DNA of 64,000 nucleotides from Pedobacter ghigonis. Its GTDB lineage: Bacteria; Bacteroidota; Bacteroidia; Sphingobacteriales; Sphingobacteriaceae. The notes under the pieces were generated by a model that saw only the letters and a list, made by a program, of their open reading frames with translations, was not told the DNA's origin and made no database searches. Shown here one piece after another: positions 52,897-64,000 of this stretch. The position numbers and the translations under genes were made by a program. How positions within the stretch are numbered: position 1 is the stretch's first letter; every line of letters begins with the position of its first letter. The stretch lies in contig NZ_CAESCM010000005.1 in assembly GCF_903166585.1 (NCBI RefSeq), positions 62,001-126,000 on the forward strand, read 5' to 3'.

Positions 52897-55800
52897 ATGA
52901 GAAGAATTCTGCTATTTTCAGTCTTCCTACTGACCGTCTTTTCGAGTTCTGCCCAGCAGAGTAAGATAATAACCGGAACTGTTACCGATCAAAAAACCGG
53001 CGAAACCATAGCCGGTGTTAGTATAAGTATTAAGGGCACAACCAAAGGTGGCGTTACCACCAGGGCACAGGGTGAGTACAGCATCAGTATACCTACCGAT
53101 CAGCCAACGGTTTTGGTATTCAGATACGTAGGTTACCACGCCAAAGAGGTAACTGTAAACCAACAAAAAACAATAGATGTAACCTTAGCCGAGCAAAACA
53201 ACGACCTGGATCAGGTGGTGGTAGTAGGCTATGGTACGGTAGCCAAAAAAGACCTTACAGGTTCGGTAAGCTCGGTTAAAATGGCCGAGTTAAACAAAGC
53301 ACCGGTACGTTCTTTCGATGAGGCTTTAGCAGGTCGTGTAGCTGGGGTGCAGGTAACCTCGGCCGATGGCCGCCCGGGTTCAGGTGTTGATATTGTGATC
53401 CGTGGTAATAACTCGGTTACGCAGGCCAACAGTCCTTTGTATGTGGTAGATGGTTTCCTGATCGAAGATCCCAATAACAATGTGGTTAATCCGGCCGATA
53501 TCGAATCGATAGACATTTTAAAGGATGCATCGGCAACCGCTATTTACGGTGCCCGTGGCGCCAATGGGGTAGTGGTAATTACAACCAAAAAAGGTAAACA
53601 GGGCAAACCGGTATTTAGTTTCTCGAGTACATTAGGGGTGCAGCGCATGGCCAAAAAAATGGAAATGATGAGTCCTTACGAGTATGTAAAATACCAGCTA
53701 GAACTTACGCCTGCTTTAACCGGAACACCAGCTACACCTACGCAAATTTATCTTACCGATGGAAAAACCGTTGATTATTACAATGGTGTTAATGCGATTG
53801 ACTGGCAGGATTTGGTTTCGCGCACAGCCGTATACAACAATAACGATTTTGCGGTAAGGGGTGGAACCAAAAAACTGAAATATGCAGTTTCTACTTCAAC
53901 AGTTAACCAAAACGGTATTTTATTAAATTCAAATTATCAGAGATACACTGGTCGTGCGGTGATCGATTATGCCATTACCGATAAGTTAAAAGTAGGTATC
54001 AACGCCAATTACAGCTTCCTTAAACAAAAAGGGATCGACCCCACCAGGGGCGAAAATGGTGCTACTACCAACGTAATGACTTCTATTCTAGGCATGAGAC
54101 CAGTTCCTTCCGAAGTGTTTGATCTCGAAGATTCTTTCCAGGATCCGGATATGAACGCCGCGAACGATTACCGTATCAATCCGGTTATCAGCTTGCAGAA
54201 TTCGTACAATGTAACCACTACACACAACATTACCGCCAATGGTTATGCCGAATATGCAATTCTTAAAGATTTAAAACTGAGATCATCTTTCGGTATCATC
54301 GAAAATAAATCCGAAAATGATGTATTTAACAACACCAAAACCTCTGCAGGTCGCCCGGGAGGAGTAAACGGCGTAAACGGAAGAATCAGCAATAACAATT
54401 ACAGTAACTGGTTAAACGAAAACACGCTTACCTGGGATAAAAAAATAAGTAAAAAGTCGAAATTAAACCTGTTGGGAGGATTTACACTTCAAAAAAGGCA
54501 CACCTGGAGCAATGGCCGCTCCGTAACCCAATTGCCTAACGAAGACCTGATGTTTGATGGTTTTGACCAGGGCGTACAACAAAGGGTCGATCCTTCTGCA
54601 TCCGACTGGACCATGGCTTCTTTTTTAGGTCGCATTAATTACAATTACGATTCGAAATACTTGTTTACAGCCTCTTACCGGGCAGATGGATCTTCTAAAT
54701 TTCCAAGCCAGAACCACTGGGGGTATTTTCCTTCAGCAGCTATTGCCTGGAGGTTTGATCAGGAAAATTTCCTCAAAAAATCTAAAATATTATCAGAAGG
54801 TAAGTTGCGTGTGAGTTACGGACAAACCGGTAACAACCGCGTAGGCGATTTCGATTACCTGACCAATTATTTCAATCCGATTGTAAATACCTACACTTTT
54901 AACAACGAATATGTACCGGGGGTAATCCCTACCAAACTGGGTAATTCCGATTTGAAATGGGAAACCACCGAACAGGTAGATGCCGGTATTGATTTAGGCT
55001 TTTTTAAACAAAGAATTACCTTCAGTGCCGATGTATATAGAAAAGTAACCAAAGATTTATTGTTAAATACCCAATTGCCGCCATCGGCAGGTTTTGGTAC
55101 CGCATTAAAAAACATCGGTAGCGTAGAAAACAGGGGACTGGAGCTAACCTTAACTACCCAAAACATCGTTACTAAAGATTTTACCTGGAGTACCAATGCC
55201 AACATTGCCTTTAACCGCAATAAACTAATTTCGCTGGCCGAAGGTCAGAACACCCTCGAGAGTACCATTAACTGGGATGCCGCATGGCGTAACGTAAGTG
55301 CTTATGTTGCAGAAGTGGGCCAGCCTTTAGGTTCTATGTATGGCTACGAATGGTTGGGTACTTATAAATATGCCGATTTTAATACCTCCGTTAATGGCAG
55401 CGGTGTTACCGTTTATACCTTAAAACCAGAGGTAGCAACCAATGGCAATACAAGGGCAACCATCCAGCCGGGCGATATTAAATACAAAGACCAAAATGGC
55501 GATGGCGTGGTAAATGCCCAGGATTACGTTAAAACCGGAAATGGCTTACCGGCACACACCGGAGGTTTTTCTAATAACTTTACCTATAAAGGTTTCGATT
55601 TAAACATTTTCTTCCAGTGGTCGTACGGTAACGATCTTTTAAATGCCAATAAAATGCTGTTCGAAGGCAATTCAAATGGCTTGGGTAATTTTAATCAATA
55701 TGCAAGCTATGAAAACCGCTGGACGCCACAGAACGCTGAATCTGAAATGTTCCGCACCAGGGGCTTTTTTGGTGGCGGATATTCATCAAACTACGTAGAA

Positions 55801-56046
55801 GATGGTTCTTACCTGAGGCTAAAAACAGTATCGCTGGGCTATAACCTCGATCCGAAACTACTTAAAAAGGTATACCTTAAAACATTAAGGTTCTTTGTGT
55901 CGGCACAAAATTTAGCCACCTGGACCAAATATTCGGGAGCAGACCCTGAGGTAAATACCTACCGTTCTGTTTTAACGCCAGGCTTTGATTTCTCTGCCTA
56001 TCCGCGTGCCCGTACTGTAGTTTTTGGTACAAACCTTACATTTTAA
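52897..56046 (+). CDS. SusC/RagA-type TonB-dependent outer-membrane transporter
   Basis: A 1049-residue outer-membrane importer for oligosaccharides. Order: signal peptide (MRRILLFSVFLLTVFSSSAQ), CarboxypepD-reg-like domain (GTVTDQKTGETIAGVSISIKG), plug (VVVVGYGTVAKKDLTGSVSS, RIRGNNSVTQ-like VIRGNNSVTQ), then a 22-strand barrel ending FGTNLTF with C-terminal Phe. The plug's SRPGSG-type segment (DGRPGSGVDIVIRG) is standard. No STN domain is seen at the N-terminus, so it relies on TonB rather than on a sigma/anti-sigma pair. susD follows 20 bp later; together they bind and import the PUL glycan. Confidence 0.97.
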   Translation: MRRILLFSVFLLTVFSSSAQQSKIITGTVTDQKTGETIAGVSISIKGTTKGGVTTRAQGEYSISIPTDQPTVLVFRYVGYHAKEVTVNQQKTIDVTLAEQNNDLDQVVVVGYGTVAKKDLTGSVSSVKMAELNKAPVRSFDEALAGRVAGVQVTSADGRPGSGVDIVIRGNNSVTQANSPLYVVDGFLIEDPNNNVVNPADIESIDILKDASATAIYGARGANGVVVITTKKGKQGKPVFSFSSTLGVQRMAKKMEMMSPYEYVKYQLELTPALTGTPATPTQIYLTDGKTVDYYNGVNAIDWQDLVSRTAVYNNNDFAVRGGTKKLKYAVSTSTVNQNGILLNSNYQRYTGRAVIDYAITDKLKVGINANYSFLKQKGIDPTRGENGATTNVMTSILGMRPVPSEVFDLEDSFQDPDMNAANDYRINPVISLQNSYNVTTTHNITANGYAEYAILKDLKLRSSFGIIENKSENDVFNNTKTSAGRPGGVNGVNGRISNNNYSNWLNENTLTWDKKISKKSKLNLLGGFTLQKRHTWSNGRSVTQLPNEDLMFDGFDQGVQQRVDPSASDWTMASFLGRINYNYDSKYLFTASYRADGSSKFPSQNHWGYFPSAAIAWRFDQENFLKKSKILSEGKLRVSYGQTGNNRVGDFDYLTNYFNPIVNTYTFNNEYVPGVIPTKLGNSDLKWETTEQVDAGIDLGFFKQRITFSADVYRKVTKDLLLNTQLPPSAGFGTALKNIGSVENRGLELTLTTQNIVTKDFTWSTNANIAFNRNKLISLAEGQNTLESTINWDAAWRNVSAYVAEVGQPLGSMYGYEWLGTYKYADFNTSVNGSGVTVYTLKPEVATNGNTRATIQPGDIKYKDQNGDGVVNAQDYVKTGNGLPAHTGGFSNNFTYKGFDLNIFFQWSYGNDLLNANKMLFEGNSNGLGNFNQYASYENRWTPQNAESEMFRTRGFFGGGYSSNYVEDGSYLRLKTVSLGYNLDPKLLKKVYLKTLRFFVSAQNLATWTKYSGADPEVNTYRSVLTPGFDFSAYPRARTVVFGTNLTF

Positions 56047-56065
56047 TCAAATAAATTATTTCAAG

Positions 56066-57757
56066 ATGAAAAAGATATATGTATTATTAGTTTTGGTGGC
56101 CATTGCCAGCAGCTCTTGTAAGAAATTCTTAGATACCCAGCCAACCGATAAAATTGCACTTGAACAATATTATACCGATGAAACCGGTTTAACCCAGGCT
56201 TTGGCAGGGGTGTACGATCCACTGGGTTCAGGTAATGTGTACGGCAATTTACCAAACGGTTTCGAGGCTTGTACCGACGAGGGTTACTATGCCCGCTCGG
56301 GTCAGGTAACCGGTATACAGGTATTTAATTTCGATCCTTCTAATACCAATGTAACCAGTTTGTGGACCGATCTTTATACCGGAATTAACCGCGCAAACGA
56401 TTTAATTGCACACATCGATGTACCGCAAATGGATGAAGGCAAGCGGCAGATTATATTGGGCGAGGCTTTGTTTTTAAGAGGCTATTACTACTTTATGCTG
56501 GTTACCCGTTTTGGCGATGTACCTTTAAGGTTAGCGCCAACCACAAGTCCTAACGATGTGCAGTTGGCCCGCACCAAAACGGCTGATGTTTATGCCCAGA
56601 TATTGAAAGACATGACCACAGCCGAAACAAAAGTGGCCACTTCTACCGCAATTGGTTATCCCAGCCGCGTTTCAAAAACGGTAGTACAGGGTATTCTGGC
56701 CAGGGTTTGTTTGCAAATGGCAGGTTACCCGCTAAACGATACCGGTAAATATGCCGAGGCACTGGCCTGGACTAAAAAGGTAATCAGCTCGGGCGAACAT
56801 GCCTTAAATACAACCTTTAGTACCGATGCTACCTTTAATGGTTTCAATGAAACTTTGCCATCGGTACCAGCCAATTCCAATAATGCCTATCGCCAGATAT
56901 TTATCAATGCTGCACAAGAGATTTACAACACCAAAGAGAGCATGTGGGAAATTGAATTTAAAGGTAACCGTGCCGATGGTTACTTAGATCTGGGGCCTTT
57001 GGGGAGTCAGGTGGGAATTACCATGACACCATCGGCAGCCAATTCGCCCTTGTATTCCTACCCGGGTTATTGCTATGGTTTTATAAAAGGAACCGCACGT
57101 TTATACAATAAATACGATGCAACCGGAAAAGATTTACGCCGCGATTGGGTACTCACTACTTATACCTGGACCGTTAACAATACTACCAATACCGCTACAA
57201 AAACGGCTATTGCCAAAACCGTACAATACGGCAGGGATATGGCCAAATGGAGAAGAGAGTACGAACTGCTTACGCCTAAAGATAAAAACCAGACCGGAAT
57301 TAACTTCCCGGTGCTGCGGTATGCCGATATCCTGTTGATGTTTGCTGAAGCTGAAAATCAGGTAAATGGTCCAACAGCCGACGCTTACAATGCCATTAAC
57401 CAGGTACGCCGAAGAGGTTACGGGTTGCCGGTTGCGGCAGCAAGTGTTGTGGCAGATTTGACCGGACTTAACAAAGCTACCTTTCAGCAAGCTATAGAAG
57501 ACGAGCGCATGCGCGAGTTGTGTTTTGAAGGTTTACGCCGTATGGATTTAATCCGCTGGAATAAATTTGTAAGCACCATGAATTCGGTTGGCGCCGAAAT
57601 GGGTGCTGCACCTACCACTGGCGCACTAACTTCGGGTAACCAGCAATATGGTGGTTTAGGCGGCAAAAATGTTACGGCAAGAAATTTATTGTTCCCCATT
57701 CCTTCTTTAGAAATGTCGTCGAACAAATTAATTACAGAAAATAACCCGGGCTGGTAA
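56066..57757 (+). CDS. SusD/RagB-type glycan-binding lipoprotein
   Basis: A 563-residue surface lipoprotein that holds glycan over the SusC pore. I start at the ATG at 56066 (MKKIYVLLVLVAIASSSCKKF), which gives a lipobox with Cys18. The track from 56024 would add a spurious 14-residue tail inside susC. Typical segments are FLDTQPTDKIALEQYYTDETGL, GINRANDLIAHID, EALFLRGYYYFMLVTRFGDVPL, PVLRYADILLMFAEAENQV and ALGEKMR-like EDERMRELCFEGLRRMDLIRW. The SusD C-terminus FPIPSLEMSSNKLITENNPGW is intact. Confidence 0.96.
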   Translation: MKKIYVLLVLVAIASSSCKKFLDTQPTDKIALEQYYTDETGLTQALAGVYDPLGSGNVYGNLPNGFEACTDEGYYARSGQVTGIQVFNFDPSNTNVTSLWTDLYTGINRANDLIAHIDVPQMDEGKRQIILGEALFLRGYYYFMLVTRFGDVPLRLAPTTSPNDVQLARTKTADVYAQILKDMTTAETKVATSTAIGYPSRVSKTVVQGILARVCLQMAGYPLNDTGKYAEALAWTKKVISSGEHALNTTFSTDATFNGFNETLPSVPANSNNAYRQIFINAAQEIYNTKESMWEIEFKGNRADGYLDLGPLGSQVGITMTPSAANSPLYSYPGYCYGFIKGTARLYNKYDATGKDLRRDWVLTTYTWTVNNTTNTATKTAIAKTVQYGRDMAKWRREYELLTPKDKNQTGINFPVLRYADILLMFAEAENQVNGPTADAYNAINQVRRRGYGLPVAAASVVADLTGLNKATFQQAIEDERMRELCFEGLRRMDLIRWNKFVSTMNSVGAEMGAAPTTGALTSGNQQYGGLGGKNVTARNLLFPIPSLEMSSNKLITENNPGW

Positions 57758-57773
57758 CAAGCTGCAAGTCAAT

Positions 57774-57805
57774 AAAATCTGCCGGTTTAAACCCGGCAGA
57801 TTTTT
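57774..57805 (+). terminator. Terminator inside the PUL operon
   Basis: A 12-bp stem AAAATCTGCCGG / CCGGCAGATTTT with a 7-nt loop and T-run, 17 bp after the susD stop and 23 bp before the next gene. It could let the susCD pair be expressed more than the downstream genes. Confidence 0.75.
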
Positions 57806-57827
57806 AGCGTAGTATAACAATCAATGT

Positions 57828-59417
57828 ATGGCTTTAAAAAGAATCATTTTAGGTTTAATTACCATTAGCAGTTTATCGCTCCAGGCACAGGAAAGTGCGA
57901 TATGGGAGGATTTTAAAACCGCAAAAAGTACAGGTGCTACGCCTGTTTTGCCCGATTTCTCTTATGCCGGTTACCGCTACAGCGAAGAAGCCATACCCAC
58001 GGTAAATTATAAGGTTTTCGATGTAACCAGCTTTGGAGCCGTTCCAAACGATAATGTATCGGATAAAAAAGCATTTATAAGTGCCATTGCAGCAGCAGAG
58101 GCCAATGGCGAAGGGATTATTTATTTCCCCAAAGGCCGGTACCTGTTTAATACCGCTAACGACGACCAAAAGGTGATCCGCATCTCAGGGTCGAAAATTG
58201 TACTAAGGGGAGCGGGTAACGGAGAAGGTGGGACTGTTTTGTTTTTTGATAAAGATTTGCCTCCCGCCAATCCAAAGCAAATGTGGTCGGTACCGATGGC
58301 CATAAACATTGGTGCAAAGGGTGCGAATAAAAAACTGGCTGATGTAACAGCTAACGCCCCGCGCGAAAGCCACATCATTGAAGTAAGTAATGCCTCTAAA
58401 ATTAAGGCCGGCGACTGGATTATCCTCGAGGTAACCAATAACAGCCCCGAACTAATTAGTTACGATTTAAAGGGCATAAAACCCGATACCAGCTGGGCTT
58501 CGCTGATTAAAAAAGGGGTCCAGGTTAATGAACGCCATCAAGTGGCTAAAGTAGACGGCAACAAGCTTATGCTGGTAGAACCCATCCATTACGATGTGCA
58601 GGCCAAGCACCACTGGACCGTTTTGGGCTTTGCCCATTTAAGCGAGGTAGGGGTCGAAAATATTGCTTTCGAAGGCAACTGGCTAAAGAAATTTGTGCAC
58701 CACCGCTCAGCGCAGGATGATAGCGGATGGAGTATCCTGAGTTTAAACAAATCGGTAAACTCCTGGGTAAGAAACTGCACCTTCCGCAATGTAAACAACG
58801 GTTTAACCATCGGGGCATCGGCAGCCTGTACAGCTATTGATTTGGTTTTTGAGGGCAACATGGGACATAATTCTGTAGATGCCGCTGGTGGTTCGACCGG
58901 TATTTTGCTGGCCAATATTACCGATTTAACCGGTATGCACCATGCTGTAGGCGTAGGTGGCGGAAGTACTACCGCTACCGTAATCTGGCGTTCGAGATAC
59001 CCCGAAAATACCTGTTTCGAATCGCATTCCTCGCAGCCACGCTGCACCTTGCTCGATCTGGTAACCGGCGGCCTGTCTGACGGAAGGGCGGGAGGAGCGA
59101 TATTTAATATGCCCAACCATGGTCGTAATCTGGTGTTGTGGAACTATAAGCAGTTAGGCACTGCCAGAAAGAATTTCGAATTCTGGCCAGCCAAATCAAT
59201 CTGGTGGAAAATAGTGCCGCCCATTATTGTGGGGTATCATGGTGCCGAAACCACCTTCAATAAAGATCAGGTACAGGTATTGGAAAGCCTGGGTAAAGCG
59301 GTACAACCCGAATCGTTGTTTGAAGCCCAATTGGAATTAAGATTAGGTAAATTACCCCAGTGGATAGCCGAAGAGAAAAAGAAAATTAAAGCACAGGATA
59401 ATCTGGCCGAAAAATAA
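57828..59417 (+). CDS. Secreted right-handed parallel beta-helix protein (pectate-lyase superfamily)
   Basis: A 529-residue exported protein (signal MALKRIILGLITISSLSLQAQ). The N-terminal Pectate_lyase_3-like start is VFDVTSFGAVPNDNVSDKKAF with GIIYFPKGRYLFNTA, then beta-helix coils with the usual alternate Asn/Val/Gly pattern through about residue 400 (NVNNGLTIGASAACTAIDLVFEGN). The C-terminal part (FEAQLELRLGKLPQWIAEE) resembles the DUF4955 extension. It is the only lyase candidate near GH88. The catalytic residues cannot be assigned with confidence from sequence, and hydrolase activity is possible too. Confidence 0.75.
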   Translation: MALKRIILGLITISSLSLQAQESAIWEDFKTAKSTGATPVLPDFSYAGYRYSEEAIPTVNYKVFDVTSFGAVPNDNVSDKKAFISAIAAAEANGEGIIYFPKGRYLFNTANDDQKVIRISGSKIVLRGAGNGEGGTVLFFDKDLPPANPKQMWSVPMAINIGAKGANKKLADVTANAPRESHIIEVSNASKIKAGDWIILEVTNNSPELISYDLKGIKPDTSWASLIKKGVQVNERHQVAKVDGNKLMLVEPIHYDVQAKHHWTVLGFAHLSEVGVENIAFEGNWLKKFVHHRSAQDDSGWSILSLNKSVNSWVRNCTFRNVNNGLTIGASAACTAIDLVFEGNMGHNSVDAAGGSTGILLANITDLTGMHHAVGVGGGSTTATVIWRSRYPENTCFESHSSQPRCTLLDLVTGGLSDGRAGGAIFNMPNHGRNLVLWNYKQLGTARKNFEFWPAKSIWWKIVPPIIVGYHGAETTFNKDQVQVLESLGKAVQPESLFEAQLELRLGKLPQWIAEEKKKIKAQDNLAEK

Positions 59418-59465
59418 GAGGAGCAACAGAAAGGAATAAGCACATACCCGGCACAGCTGCCCATA

Positions 59466-60968
59466 ATGAAAACTGATAAAAACCCAAGACGAATGAGCAA
59501 TAAAAAATATCCTCCATATATCCTGTTTTTTCTTTCCCTGTTAGTTGCGTTTCCGGCCGTGGCACAAAAGGGTACTAAAGCTAAAACTAGCCCAAATTTG
59601 TTAATTATCATGGCCGATCAGTGGAGAGGGCAGGCACTGGGTTTCGAAGGCCGTGAGCCGGTATTGACGCCCTATTTAGATCGGTATGCCAAAGAGAGTT
59701 TAGTGCTGAGCCAGATGGTGAGTAATTACCCCGTTTGTTCGCCAGCCAGGGCTATGCTCATGACCGGACAATACCCACTCAAAAACCATGTTTACAGCAA
59801 TGTAAACTCCAGTTCAGCGCCTTTCGGCATCGAACTTCAAAAAGATGCCGTATGCTGGTCGGATGTATTGAAACAGAACGGCTATTCGAACGGTTACATA
59901 GGTAAATGGCATCTCGATTCGCCTTATCAACCTTACATTTCTACTTCAAACAACACCGGAAAAGTAGCCTGGAACGAGTGGACTGACCCAGAGCGCAGGC
60001 ATGGTTTCGATTATTGGTATGCCTATGGTACTTACGATGAACACAACAAACCCATGTACTGGGATACTAATGATAAACGTGACGATTTTAAGTACGTAAA
60101 CCAATGGGGGCCAGAGCACGAAGCCGATAAAGCATTGGCTTACTTTAAAAATGAAAGCGGAAAAATCCGTAAAAATGGTGCGCCTTTCTCATTGGTGGTT
60201 TCCATGAACCCGCCGCACTCTAATTACCGCACCGTACCCGAAAAATACTATAGCCTGTACAAAGATGTTTCTTTGACCGATTTGGTAAAAGATCCCAATA
60301 TCCCGGCAGCAGGTACGGCATTTGGCGATCAGTACCGTAAAGATGTGCGTTATTATTATGCCAATATTACTGGCGTAGATGAGCAGATTGGCCGTATTTT
60401 ACAAGGCTTAAAAGATCAGCACTTGGAGGAGAATACCATTGTGGTCATTATGGCCGATCATGGTAACTGTTTAGGTAAACATGACGAAGAATCCAAAAAC
60501 AACATCTTTGAAGAGTCGCTGCGGATTCCTTTCATTGTTAACTGGAAAGGTCATATCCAGCCCCGTAAAGATGATACCTTTTTAGGCAGTGTGCCTGATA
60601 TTTATCCAACCCTTTTAGATTTGATGGGATTAAAAAATAAAACACCAAAAGACGTAGATGGTAAGAGTTACGCCCAGTATTACCTGAATGGTAAAGGTGA
60701 AAAACCAGCCGAACAGTACATTTTAGGAGCCATTGGCAGCAACAATGTAAACATCAACACCGGTTTCAGGGGCATTCGTACCAAAGACTATAAGCTGGCT
60801 TTTGTGAAGAAAAAGGGCAAAGGCGCTTATGAATTGTACGATTTAAAAGCAGATCCTTTCGAACTTAAAAACATTTATCAGCCGGGGCTGCCCATCGTGA
60901 AAAAGCTGCAGCCAGTTTTGCTGCAGTGGCTCGAAAAAACAAAAGATGTTTTTACGCCCGGCCAATAA
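59466..60968 (+). CDS. S1-family sulfatase
   Basis: A 500-residue exported sulfatase that removes sulfate esters from the PUL glycan. The active-site motif is YPVCSPARAMLMTGQ, with Cys91 (C-S-P-A-R) to be converted to formylglycine. Metal-ligand segments are LIIMADQWRGQA and VVIMADHGNCLGKH. The C-terminus carries the usual FRGIRTKDYKLAFV subdomain. Two starts are possible: ATG 59466, or ATG 59493 (MSNKKYPPYILFF). Either has a signal peptide ending at about FPAVAQKG. The Cys-type motif would need an external maturation enzyme, not found in the window; the FGE-like gene at 37710 lacks the needed cysteine pair. Confidence 0.92.
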   Translation: MKTDKNPRRMSNKKYPPYILFFLSLLVAFPAVAQKGTKAKTSPNLLIIMADQWRGQALGFEGREPVLTPYLDRYAKESLVLSQMVSNYPVCSPARAMLMTGQYPLKNHVYSNVNSSSAPFGIELQKDAVCWSDVLKQNGYSNGYIGKWHLDSPYQPYISTSNNTGKVAWNEWTDPERRHGFDYWYAYGTYDEHNKPMYWDTNDKRDDFKYVNQWGPEHEADKALAYFKNESGKIRKNGAPFSLVVSMNPPHSNYRTVPEKYYSLYKDVSLTDLVKDPNIPAAGTAFGDQYRKDVRYYYANITGVDEQIGRILQGLKDQHLEENTIVVIMADHGNCLGKHDEESKNNIFEESLRIPFIVNWKGHIQPRKDDTFLGSVPDIYPTLLDLMGLKNKTPKDVDGKSYAQYYLNGKGEKPAEQYILGAIGSNNVNINTGFRGIRTKDYKLAFVKKKGKGAYELYDLKADPFELKNIYQPGLPIVKKLQPVLLQWLEKTKDVFTPGQ

Positions 60969-60982
60969 CCTTTTAACCTGTT

Positions 60983-62515
60983 ATGACCAAACAAATGAAA
61001 AGAAACTTAATTTATAAATGCCTGGTATGTTTGCCATTGCTTGGCACTGTTACCCCCGTGCTTGCACAAAATAAAGAAGCTGATAAAGTAAAAATGGAGC
61101 ACGCCCAGATTGGCATTGTTGAAGATGCAAAATCGGGCTACAAGCATACCACCCACCCCGGAGCACAGTGGTTTCCGGAGGCTGGTTTAGGTATGTTTAT
61201 CCATTGGAGCATTTCATCGATTAAACAAATAGACCTCTCGTGGCCCATGATGGCCGGCACCCAGATTGGCTGGCGCTCGCCCAAAATGGATTCGGCATCG
61301 GTTAAAAAGATTATGGATTCGGGCAATTATTTTGCCGGAAATGGCTGCGAAAAAACAAACAGCTGTATTACTCCGCTTGAGTATTGGGCACTGGCCAAAG
61401 ACTTTAATCCTCAAAACTACGACCCCGAAAAATGGATTAAAGCAGCCAAAGCAGCCGGTATGACTTATGCGGTGCTTACAGCAAGACATCATGATGGTTT
61501 TGCCCTGTGGCCAAGCGCTTATGGTAATTTCAATACCAAAAACTACATGGGTGGCCGCGATCTAGTAAAAGATTATGTGGCCGCCTGCAGAAAATATGGG
61601 TTAAAGGTTGGGATTTATTACTCAGGACCAGACTGGCACCAAAATGGAGATTTCCAAAATTTTATGTACTATGGGCTAGGTAGGGATTACCCAAATATCC
61701 CGGTGCTGGATGAAAATTTAAGGCCTCGGACTACCGTAAAAACCGAAGCTGAAAAGCAGGCCCATTACAATGAAATGGCGGCTTACGTAAAAGGGCAGGT
61801 TACGGAACTGTTAAGCAATTACGGGCAGATTGATATGATCTGGTTCGATGGAGCAGCCGATATTCCGCGTGGAAATAAAGCCTGGGATAAATGCATAACC
61901 ATGGCCGAAATCCATAGATTGCAACCTGGCATTGTGGTAAGTCCAAGGTTTTTCGGTTATGGCGATTACAAAACCTTTGAGCAGGATAAAGCATTGCCCA
62001 AAACCAAGCAAGATGGCTGGGCCGAACTTTGTACCACCATTACCGATGGAGGCTGGGGCTATACAGGAAAGCCTTTAAAACCCGTTGCGCTGGTGCTCAA
62101 CAATCTGATTAAGTGCAGGGCCAATAATGCCAATATGCTGTTAAATTACGGGCCAACTAAAGAAGGGGTACTTACTCCTGAAATGTACACCAGTCTGGCC
62201 GAAATTGCCGGTTGGATGAAAGTAAATGGCAGTGCCATAAAAGGTGCACAGGCACTCGATGCCAGCGAATCGGCATCGGTACCGGCCACAGCAGCAGCCA
62301 AGCGCCGCTACCTGTTTTTACTGGCTCATAAAAAGGGTGAAAAACCAGTCGATGAACAGGTGACTTTTAGCACAAAGGGAAGTATTAAAAACGTAAGCCT
62401 GGCAGGCAATAAAGTACCCCTTAAATACAGCGTAGCAAATGGACAGCTTACGGTACAGGTACCGGCAGCATTAAGAACCGTATTGCCTGATGTTATTGAG
62501 CTGGAGTTGAAGTAA
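60983..62515 (+). CDS. Alpha-L-fucosidase, family GH29
   Basis: A 510-residue exported fucosidase (signal MTKQMKRNLIYKCLVCLPLL; an ATG at 60995 gives a shorter n-region). It shows GAQWFPEAGLGMFIHWSISS, the GH29 N-terminal signature, and LTARHHDGFALWPSAYG. QIDMIWFDGAADIPRGN contains the catalytic nucleophile Asp289. Typical of the family, it removes terminal alpha-L-fucose from the glycan. It is the last gene of the PUL and follows the sulfatase by 14 bp, so the two are probably translated from one transcript. It could act after desulfation. Confidence 0.93.
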   Translation: MTKQMKRNLIYKCLVCLPLLGTVTPVLAQNKEADKVKMEHAQIGIVEDAKSGYKHTTHPGAQWFPEAGLGMFIHWSISSIKQIDLSWPMMAGTQIGWRSPKMDSASVKKIMDSGNYFAGNGCEKTNSCITPLEYWALAKDFNPQNYDPEKWIKAAKAAGMTYAVLTARHHDGFALWPSAYGNFNTKNYMGGRDLVKDYVAACRKYGLKVGIYYSGPDWHQNGDFQNFMYYGLGRDYPNIPVLDENLRPRTTVKTEAEKQAHYNEMAAYVKGQVTELLSNYGQIDMIWFDGAADIPRGNKAWDKCITMAEIHRLQPGIVVSPRFFGYGDYKTFEQDKALPKTKQDGWAELCTTITDGGWGYTGKPLKPVALVLNNLIKCRANNANMLLNYGPTKEGVLTPEMYTSLAEIAGWMKVNGSAIKGAQALDASESASVPATAAAKRRYLFLLAHKKGEKPVDEQVTFSTKGSIKNVSLAGNKVPLKYSVANGQLTVQVPAALRTVLPDVIELELK

Positions 62516-62892: not shown

Positions 62893-63303
62893 TTATCGTT
62901 TAGCATTATTGTGATACTTAGAAGCAAACTCCTTTAATCGATTCATTAATTCTGGATTATTTACCTTAACATTCACACCCTTTTTCTTGTCAAATTTCTC
63001 AATTTCATAAGGCATACCTACTTCTTTATGTAGCCGTTTCAATTCCGTCTCTAAAGCTTTTGCCAATCCAGTAGTTATTCTTCCCTGTGCTGCTAACAAA
63101 TTTCCATTATCTTCTTCAAGTAATTCTCCTATTTCATTGAGATTTTCGTAGCTAGGTTGTGAAGTGTTGGAATTCCAACCACTAACAGTAGTGTAGTCTA
63201 CATCCACCCAAAGTGATACTAATCGTGAGGAAGCCCCAACTTTTTTTGTTATCAACTTTATCTGATTAATGTTTGTACTTTCCTTTACTGTTTTTCTGCT
63301 CAT
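62893..63303 (-). CDS. Small Xre-like HTH protein
   Basis: A 136-residue protein with an Xre/Cro-type HTH region: residues 13-70 hold LITKKVGASSRLVSLWVDV, then a likely recognition helix YTTVSGWNSNTSQPSYENL. The C-terminal half is charged (KKKGVNVKVNNPELMNRLKEF) and may mediate dimerisation or a ligand. It is rich in Lys and Asn and its codon use is more AT-biased than the neighbours, which fits recent transfer. It starts 18 bp left of a divergent consensus promoter, which it could repress. The DNA-binding call is by pattern, without a search. Confidence 0.65.
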   Translation of the reverse strand: MSRKTVKESTNINQIKLITKKVGASSRLVSLWVDVDYTTVSGWNSNTSQPSYENLNEIGELLEEDNGNLLAAQGRITTGLAKALETELKRLHKEVGMPYEIEKFDKKKGVNVKVNNPELMNRLKEFASKYHNNAKR

Positions 63304-63320
63304 AAAAAAATGGATAGAAG

Positions 63321-63351
63321 TTTGCTTTATGTGCGAACTTTTGTATATTTG
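63321..63351 (+). promoter_or_regulatory. Consensus Bacteroidota promoter of the structured RNA
   Basis: TTTG (63321-63324), exactly 19 nt, then TATATTTG (63344-63351). It reads to the right, away from the HTH gene, and its predicted start is about 63358. No ORF begins within the next 300 bp. Confidence 0.8.
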
Positions 63352-63357
63352 TTAATA

Positions 63358-63600
63358 GTTATTATAGCGACAAATAGGGTTGGGGAAACCTGACTGTTAC
63401 GATGTCACTCATGAATGAAAACCGCTAAATTTTCCACATGAGCCGATCGTGAGTTCGCCATATCTATTGGGTTTTGTTATCTTTGTGATATCTTATATTC
63501 AATAGGGCGACACTCATGTAAGTCTTTTGTGGAACTCAAGCCTTGGCTTGAGCGGTTCTTAGCGGTACCTCATTTAAAAGCATTGAGTTTCGCCCTATTG
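63358..63600 (+). ncRNA. Candidate structured RNA, long irregular hairpin
   Basis: Nested pairings run through the whole region: AATAGGG (63373) with CCCTATT (63593), ACTCA (63407) with TGAGT (63584), ACCGCTAA (63421) with TTAGCGGT (63559), TTCCAC (63432) with GTGGAA (63529). Inside them, CTCATG-type arm ACATGAG (63436) pairs with CTCATGT (63513), and TCGCC-ATAT-CTATTG (63455-63469) with CAATAGGGCGA (63500-63510). A side hairpin CTCAAGC-CTTG-GCTTGAG sits at 63535-63552. CAATAGGGCGA can also pair with TCGCCCTATTG (63590-63600), so the fold has an alternative state. It resembles 6S-like RNA or a retron msr/msd in general form, but I cannot assign a family. Confidence 0.5.
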
Positions 63601-63870
63601 GTTGATACCAATCTGGTTTGCCTCCTGCTTTGTAGAGTTTACATCGTTTTACATAAAAATTAACCGTTTATGAAAACGAAAAAATTAAGCGCCATCAAAA
63701 TGATTCACCTCAAGGAAGTGATTTGTAATTATTCCCTACAACTATTATTAAAGAACGTTATCTGTTCTCCATCGTAATACGTGCCAGAATTCCAAGTTAA
63801 AATATAGCCCAAAAGAGCATAGGCTAGTGTGAGAGAGCGCACAAAGCCCAGCGGGTTAATTTAGCTTGTT
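63601..63870 (+). other. Region downstream of the structured RNA, no supported gene
   Basis: A 35-codon ORF at 63670-63777 starts MKTKKLSAIKMIHLKEV; TTTG at 63617-63620 with TACATCGT 19 nt later is a weak promoter match. The ORF shows no recognisable family and is not called. GTGTG-6 nt-CGCAC and similar small stems lie at 63826-63842. Confidence 0.3.
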
Positions 63871-63999
63871 ACCAGCCCTTTATTGCTAATTAGGCAAAGG
63901 TGCAGCACAATGGTTTTTCGCAATCCCAAGGTAGGTATCTTTTTCCTAATAACAAATATGGTTTACCATATCCGCATATATTAACGCGGAAGGGCTGGT
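63871..63999. repeat. Second inverted-repeat domain at the right edge
   Basis: ACCAGCCCTT (63871-63880) is the exact complement of AAGGGCTGGT (63990-63999). They enclose the hairpin ATATGG-TTTA-CCATAT (63956-63971) and CCGC...GCGG (63972-63989). The pair could close a folded domain of about 129 nt that may continue past the window. Confidence 0.45.
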
Positions 64000-64000
64000 T

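Follow-up and report, generated by a model that had tools for sequence, protein, structure and literature searches.

The locus and its conserved RNA

The stretch analysed here, called the window, comprises 64,000 nucleotides of the Pedobacter ghigonis genome (contig C5, positions 62001-126000; the genome is labelled G000, and the stretch fetched around the locus L005). Close to the window end, a small minus-strand gene and a plus-strand promoter diverge from each other. The promoter reads into a structured RNA that carries a short ORF and closes with a terminator-like hairpin, and genes for an ECF sigma factor and a nuclease-dead Cas12f (dCas12f) follow just beyond the window (Table 1). Ahead of the locus, at 52897-62515 on the + strand, we noted by eye SusC-like receptor, SusD-like, sulfatase-like and fucosidase-like ORFs.

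Table 1. Features of the leader locus. Positions are those of the window unless L005 is named.
Feature	Position	Strand	Basis or remark
136-aa HTH-type regulator gene, divergent from the leader RNA	62893..63303	-	ORF and weak DicA-model match
Inverted repeat resembling an operator, AAGTTTGC-N7-GCGAACTT with one mismatch, spanning the -33 element	63318..63340	.	read from sequence
Bacteroidota-type promoter, TTTG (63321-63324)-N19-TATATTTG (63344-63351)	63321..63351	+	read from sequence
Conserved leader RNA, about 650 nt	63357..64000, U-run ending ~3 nt beyond the window (~64003)	+	BLAST, alignments, fold
Core of the 5' domain, covariance model R1, 44 base pairs	63419..63568	+	31-copy alignment
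Switch arm	63500..63510	+	pairs with 63454-63470 (model R1) or with 63591-63601; column counts for both
Site A	63506..63522	+	17/17 guide match at this place in the C1 leader; window copy differs
Site C, TTCTTAGCGGTAC	63556..63568	+	matched by guides in genome G068
Conserved 35-codon ORF, MKTKKLSAIKMIHLKEVICNYSLQLLLKNVICSPS	63670..63777	+	open in 31/31 aligned copies
5' arm of the terminal hairpin, CCAGCCC	63872..63878	+	fold
Site B	63905..63922	+	at most 2 mismatches from the C10 dCas12f guide
3' arm of the terminal hairpin, GGGCTGG (63992-63998), and start of the U-run	63992..64000	+	fold, sequence
271-aa ECF sigma ORF	L005 2062-2877, past the window end		9n9q_C 'RpoE', E 7e-42 (147 bits)
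365-aa dCas12f	L005 2882-3979, past the window end		9n9c_A 'Nuclease-deactivated Cas12f'

The original prediction placed an RNA of about 230 nt at 63321-63600. The RNA is real, but it does not end at 63600. BLAST against related loci delimited a conserved block at L005 1345-2013, which in most copies runs from the -7 box to the end of the terminator-like hairpin (comparison with 37 fetched stretches and two named contigs), and the predicted RNA is the 5' third of a putative transcript of about 650 nt. Folding bore out its structured nature: the fold energy of 63358-63600 is -81 kcal/mol, whereas shuffled sequences average -55.9 (z -5.96; none of 200 shuffles as good), and the complete RNA gave a z of -5.29 (20 shuffles).

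Thirty-one copies entered the structure alignment; outside it are seven of the 37 stretches (L097-L102 and the truncated leader L088) and both named contigs, L004 and L003, the latter seemingly identical in locus to L089. Across the aligned copies, 96.0% of the cells of the R1 core pair, with two-sided changes at 19 of the 44 pairs. Cells with two-sided changes number 94 against 28.4 in shuffles, and none of 500 shuffles did as well by any measure, figures that shared ancestry inflates, as the tool itself warns. When the structure was slid along the alignment, paired cells dropped to 36-47%. The helices formed by the nested complementary segments, as first read in the window, are therefore supported.

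An arm with two possible partners had also been proposed, and both pairings prove to be conserved, with support from few changes. For the alternative pairing, 340 of 341 cells hold a standard pair, and changes on both sides are seen in two copies at columns 169/266 and in one copy at columns 170/265. At column 169, two copies are unable to form the first pairing. These patterns support a putative shape switch between two conserved pairings of the 5' domain. A long-range pairing between ACGATG (columns 63-68) and sequence before the ORF is nearly invariant and consequently says little.

Promoter, divergent gene and leader ORF

All three parts of the predicted promoter, TTTG, the N19 spacer and TATATTTG, are in place, and together they fit what we take to be the Bacteroidota-type consensus. 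The -7 box, as TANNTTTG, stands at the promoter place in 28 of 30 copies, the window copy counted in (L004, L087 and L088 were left out of the promoter and terminator counts).

As predicted, 18 bp separate the -33 element from the start of the divergent gene (63303). Its helix-turn-helix (HTH) label comes down to a weak profile match (DicA model, E 0.0022, under the model's cut-off), and a Pfam scan of the 136-aa protein matched no HTH model. By tblastn, relatives of this protein occupy the equivalent place beside many leader copies, and dissimilar proteins stand beside others. Counted by length and position, 27 of 33 copies have a minus-strand ORF of at least 70 aa that starts at most 60 nt upstream of the -7 box. 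Longer perfect inverted repeats, of 9-11 bp, cover the promoter stretch in some copies alone (e.g. L070, L071, L084, L082 and L089). An HTH operator in the form of a general inverted repeat was considered and set aside, as it is clear in some copies alone and not significant overall.

The original prediction further held that the RNA contains no protein-coding gene. This stands for 63358-63600, which has no ORF of at least 50 aa, but is wrong for the complete RNA, because the full transcript holds a conserved 35-aa ORF. The frame is open in all aligned copies (34-36 codons) and begins with ATG in 30 of them. In the 27 of 31 copies with exactly 35 codons and ATG, its pN/pS was 0.63, against 0.91 and 1.02 in the other frames. 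Over the last 15 codons, positions 1 and 2 are the best conserved (0.80 and 0.90; position 3, 0.68), and the middle part of the peptide is variable. The leader ORF is under moderate codon constraint. Its start overlaps a conserved hairpin, and the start codon lies inside the predicted hairpin. In other genera, 15 of 20 loci were flagged for a frame of 28-45 codons that ends in a related way (L174 and L185 doubtful), which serves as a lead only because the filter itself sought that ending.

The leader ends at a predicted terminator and mostly precedes SusC operons

The CCAGCCC/GGGCTGG hairpin and its U-run stand before the first gene, as a predicted terminator would in an attenuation leader. 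In other genera, the 3' domain with the terminator is mostly unmatched, and for 19 of 20 loci the nhmmer matches go no further than model position 258-473. TANNTTTG occurs in 2 of 30 copies in the 150 nt that follow the terminator, against 3.3 expected by chance. Since this is at chance level, no separate canonical promoter is evident, and we rejected a promoter of the operon's own at this place.

Of 33 copies, all from the genus but for one from Olivibacter, 27 have a SusC-like gene downstream on the same strand, as do 17 of the 20 from other genera; stretches L090 and L180 end too early to tell. A gene for a TlpA-like thioredoxin, which often precedes the SusC-like one, follows in 24 of 33 and 9 of 20, respectively. 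The genome of the window carries a second leader copy of this kind on contig C1, with 83% identity to the window copy. It heads a TlpA-like protein, a 1060-aa TonB receptor of SusC type, whose first 866 residues match the plug and barrel models of Pfam, and an ORF that is SusD-like by eye.

The window copy is followed not by a SusC operon but by the ECF sigma and dCas12f genes, a pair found after the leader in only 2 of 33 copies (L005 and L067). A retron ncRNA had been offered as one class for this RNA, with a reverse transcriptase or other effector to be sought beyond the window. Looking past 64000 settled the retron question: the next genes are the ECF sigma and the nuclease-dead Cas12f, most other copies have SusC-type operons, and no reverse transcriptase was seen among the downstream proteins scanned (a subset of the ORFs within 8 kb).

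Further on, at L005 4500-4592 (C5 128499-128591, just past the window), an EVE-domain gene stops after its first 31 codons (Pfam EVE, 3.2e-07), and a RadC-like gene comes after the broken EVE gene, as at an insertion junction.

The sigma and dCas12f pair

The 271-aa protein matches the sigma70-ECF model (E 1.2e-19) and is encoded next to the effector. The 365-aa protein is Cas12f-like over its full length, aligning with 9n9c_A across residues 2-364 (E 3.6e-135, 454 bits); the PADLOC models Cas12u3 (E 4.5e-52) and Cas12f (E 1.8e-50) also match it. Aligned with the Cas12f effector 9nzo_B, it reads AEASLS in place of VGVDLG, so that the D is replaced, and the ERL segment falls in a gap, both motifs holding what we take to be catalytic residues of 9nzo_B. 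The alignment stops about 90 residues short of the 9nzo_B end. These differences point to an inactivated RuvC nuclease.

A sigma gene lies directly upstream of dCas12f at three loci, recognised by profile at L005, by tblastn at L067 and by eye at L120. The last of these is the second dCas12f of the same genome (C10:244139-245233), which has the sigma-like ORF upstream and a guide for site B. The nearest solved relatives were deposited together with an RpoE chain (PDB 9N9C, 9N9M, 9N9O and 9N9Q; 'Nuclease-deactivated Cas12f' and 'RpoE'). The locus resembles that dCas12f-sigmaE system in having dCas12f and an ECF sigma side by side, hairpin guide units downstream and a G before the target in most matches. 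It differs in the leader RNA that stands ahead of the effector and whose DNA carries matches to the guides.

Guides match three sites in the leader DNA

RNA-guided transcription by dCas12f-sigmaE, described in 2025 preprints, reportedly needs a 5'-G next to the target and initiates a set distance downstream. At most dCas12f loci of the genus, hairpin guide units lie downstream of the effector, with a core like TAGGGTGAG. The unit after the window's dCas12f ends in GGCGGACTTCATGTTAG. Its 16-nt core has just two places in this genome, the guide gene and the sense strand of the C1 leader; the latter lies at site A, with 17 nt matching in all. Exact matches to the genome's own leader were also found at site A in G010 (16 nt) and G049 (14 nt), and at site B in G010 and G435 (TACTATGGTTTTTCGCAA, 18 nt). 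At site C, guides of G068 match TTCTTGACGGTAC and TTCTTAGCGGTAC, 13 nt each, which are two leader variants carried by G068 itself. All of these guide-leader matches are in sense orientation and start at the scaffold end (GCAAT, ACAAT, ACAAC or ACAGT). The leader base just before the match is G throughout, except for T in G435 at site B, where that of G010 is G.

The guide of the C10 dCas12f has, beyond its own guide gene, a single site in G000 with at most 2 mismatches, which is site B of the window leader; at this fit of 2 mismatches, a reversed control pattern also has one hit in the genome.

How readily such matches arise was gauged with shuffles of the own-genome pairs, G435 not being in this test. 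In six of 16 dCas12f locus-leader pairs, no more than 5 of 300 shuffles reached the longest match: none for G000-L070, G010-L075 and G049-L088, two for G068-L077, three for the C10 guide with the window leader, and five for G068-L071. For the remaining 10 pairs, at least 41 of 300 shuffles did so.

The count of guide units drew on 15 loci of the genus in 13 genomes, of which 12 loci in 10 genomes yielded 24 units; the other three had no guide unit by the search pattern. With the scaffold boundary optimised independently for the plus strand, the minus-strand control and the reversed control, 6 of 24 units fitted an own-genome leader with at most 2 mismatches in 17, and a limit of 3 mismatches raised this to 8. 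Neither control had a unit within 3 mismatches (0 of 24), and at 4 they had 1 and 3, respectively. Eighteen of the 24 units have no fit to an own leader within 2 mismatches, and some of these resemble site A in the leaders of other genomes (G338, 0 mismatches; G027, 2 and 4; G025, 4). A plus-strand match of at least 13 nt to the subset of leader copies compared was absent from all 27 dCas12f loci (24 genomes) outside the genus.

Two other candidates were discarded. The leader RNA could itself have been the dCas12f guide, but just 2 of 33 copies have dCas12f as a neighbour, and the scaffold units of the guides are found downstream of that gene. The sequences GCTCTATTGTAATCC and CCATGGGCTCTATTGATTT hit guide-type loci or coding-like sequence (by eye) across 15 genomes and no leader. 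The guide-like GCTCTATTGTAATCC is itself repeated (L106, L107 and L127-L129; twice in G003 and in G010), with no target found among those 15 genomes.

In the open literature searched, which also lacked the system's own papers, we found no account of the leader as a dCas12f target.

A model for control of the leader and its operon

That the RNA is a leader is well supported. Our preferred reading, to which we give a probability of roughly 60%, is that it is the attenuator-type 5' leader of an HTH-controlled operon and is used by dCas12f-sigmaE as a landing site. From the structure, the conserved ORF, the gene order and the guide matches in the leader DNA we infer the following regulation. The HTH protein would repress the leader promoter. 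Once transcribed, the branched 5' domain could switch between its two pairings, the ORF start could be held in its hairpin, and the terminator would be conditional, with translation of the leader ORF and the state of the 5' domain choosing between termination and read-through. dCas12f-sigmaE, guided to the leader DNA, would start transcription downstream of its target.

Site B starts about 28 nt after the start of the terminator 5' arm and about 90 nt before the 3' arm. A transcript begun between the arms would be unable to form the terminator, and such a start, beyond the 5' arm, would let the operon be expressed independently of the HTH-controlled promoter. This bypass argument holds for site B alone, because sites A and C lie upstream of both arms. 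Starts from these two sites would give transcripts that lack 5' strands of the 5' domain and keep the terminator; their effect may be activation, altered translation of the ORF or a block of the leader.

In the P. ghigonis genome, the C1 TlpA-SusC-SusD-like operon has a leader to which the guide of the window's dCas12f is an exact fit and on which it could act, and the C10 guide, with its 2 mismatches, could act on the window leader. The two fits suggest a possible relay. A bolder version of the model, which we hold tentatively and put clearly below even odds, makes the leader a dedicated docking hub. Its three fixed sites and the guides would evolve together, and the guides would make transcription start anew within the leader, switching on an uptake operon that is otherwise terminated and HTH-repressed; as the window's dCas12f-sigmaE operon shares the leader, the outcome would be an RNA-programmed relay among separate SusCD operons.

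Should the model be true, dCas12f-sigmaE would have a native target that is used again and again, by a concrete mechanism, terminator bypass, and a route would open to understanding the choice that Bacteroidota make between their numerous SusC uptake operons. Sequence matches link the leader RNA to a mode of gene control described only recently, and leader, guide and target occur together in one strain, where the model is testable.

Elements of the leader recall transcription attenuators with a leader peptide (trp-type, such as peTrpL, PMC7298713): shared with these are the promoter, the short ORF, the alternative pairings and the terminator before the operon. The leader described here differs in its length of about 650 nt, its large branched 5' domain, the HTH-type gene at its front, an ORF without a run of one regulatory codon, and the CRISPR-derived guide sites.

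Leader-bound dCas12f might instead act mainly as a roadblock that lowers transcription of the leader and operon, in the manner of the nuclease-dead TnpB regulators called TldR. As this would require, the leader promoter is upstream of sites A, B and C, which all fall within the transcribed part, and TldR proteins, which are related, nuclease-dead and RNA-guided, are described as repressors akin to CRISPR interference (Wiegand 2024, as cited in PMC13418256). In contrast to TldR, however, an ECF sigma is encoded with the effector here, directly upstream at all three dCas12f loci examined, and would be needless for repression; the RpoE chain deposited with the nearest solved relatives argues in the same direction. 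We find this alternative doubtful, if worth keeping in mind.

We regard as unlikely that the RNA of 650 nt acts independently, in trans, as a small RNA, the downstream operon being merely a neighbour expressed from elsewhere. Such an RNA would be expected to have its own promoter and terminator-like end, as this one does; the distance from the 3' end to the next large ORF varies widely, and across genera the 5' domain is conserved with the terminator region mostly unmatched. Set against this are the SusC-like genes on the same strand after 27 of 33 and 17 of 20 copies, the lack of any TANNTTTG excess after the terminator (2 of 30 copies), and the ORF conserved inside the RNA.

Distribution and family status

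The 680 bases from 63321 found matches in 35 of 148 related genomes, some over short stretches alone. The covariance model R1 reached further, to 129 of 399 genomes of the family and 9 of 25 genera, with up to 6 matches per genome. In a class-wide draw, it matched 3 of 295 genomes: that of the window, another from its genus, and G710, which lies outside the family and whose locus the whole-element sequence profile did not match.

6S, GOLLD, ROOL and OLE are classes of large structured RNAs. The leader is alike in being long, highly structured and conserved, but it differs in having an ORF inside, in standing mostly ahead of SusC operons and in matching none of 4227 Rfam families. The window gave no match at gathering score and seven related loci none with E of at most 0.5; up to E 5, the locus returned just snoZ242 and STnc410, which are unrelated and far under their gathering scores. 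A 6S-like RNA, also among the classes first offered, finds no support in this search, and an uncharacterised regulatory RNA is the class that fits. ARAGORN found no tmRNA in L005, L067 or L070. The leader thus represents a structured RNA family absent from Rfam and present in about a third of the family genomes sampled (129 of 399).

We consider it highly improbable that the RNA is a putative mobile or selfish element, or the mRNA of the 35-aa peptide (e.g. a small toxin), with the downstream genes incidental: up to 6 model matches per genome, upstream genes that differ in sequence and length, and the conserved ORF are compatible with this, whereas the absence of any leader match in 50,697 phage and 72,556 plasmid records, the recurrent gene order with SusC operons and the variable middle of the peptide speak against it.

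With a threshold of E at most 1e-20, dCas12f was found in 95 of the 399 genomes of the family, which appear to be the draw scanned with R1. RNA and dCas12f occur together in 70 genomes; the RNA is alone in 59 (of the other 304) and dCas12f alone in 25, an odds ratio of 11.6 that ignores shared ancestry. The genus g67 has dCas12f in 10 genomes and the RNA in 3, with no overlap, and dCas12f therefore probably has other targets there. The genome G002 (L113 and L121-L126) has seven dCas12f match rows, several of them frameshifted or split, and no match to the 680-base leader query, a picture of dCas12f copies multiplying and decaying.
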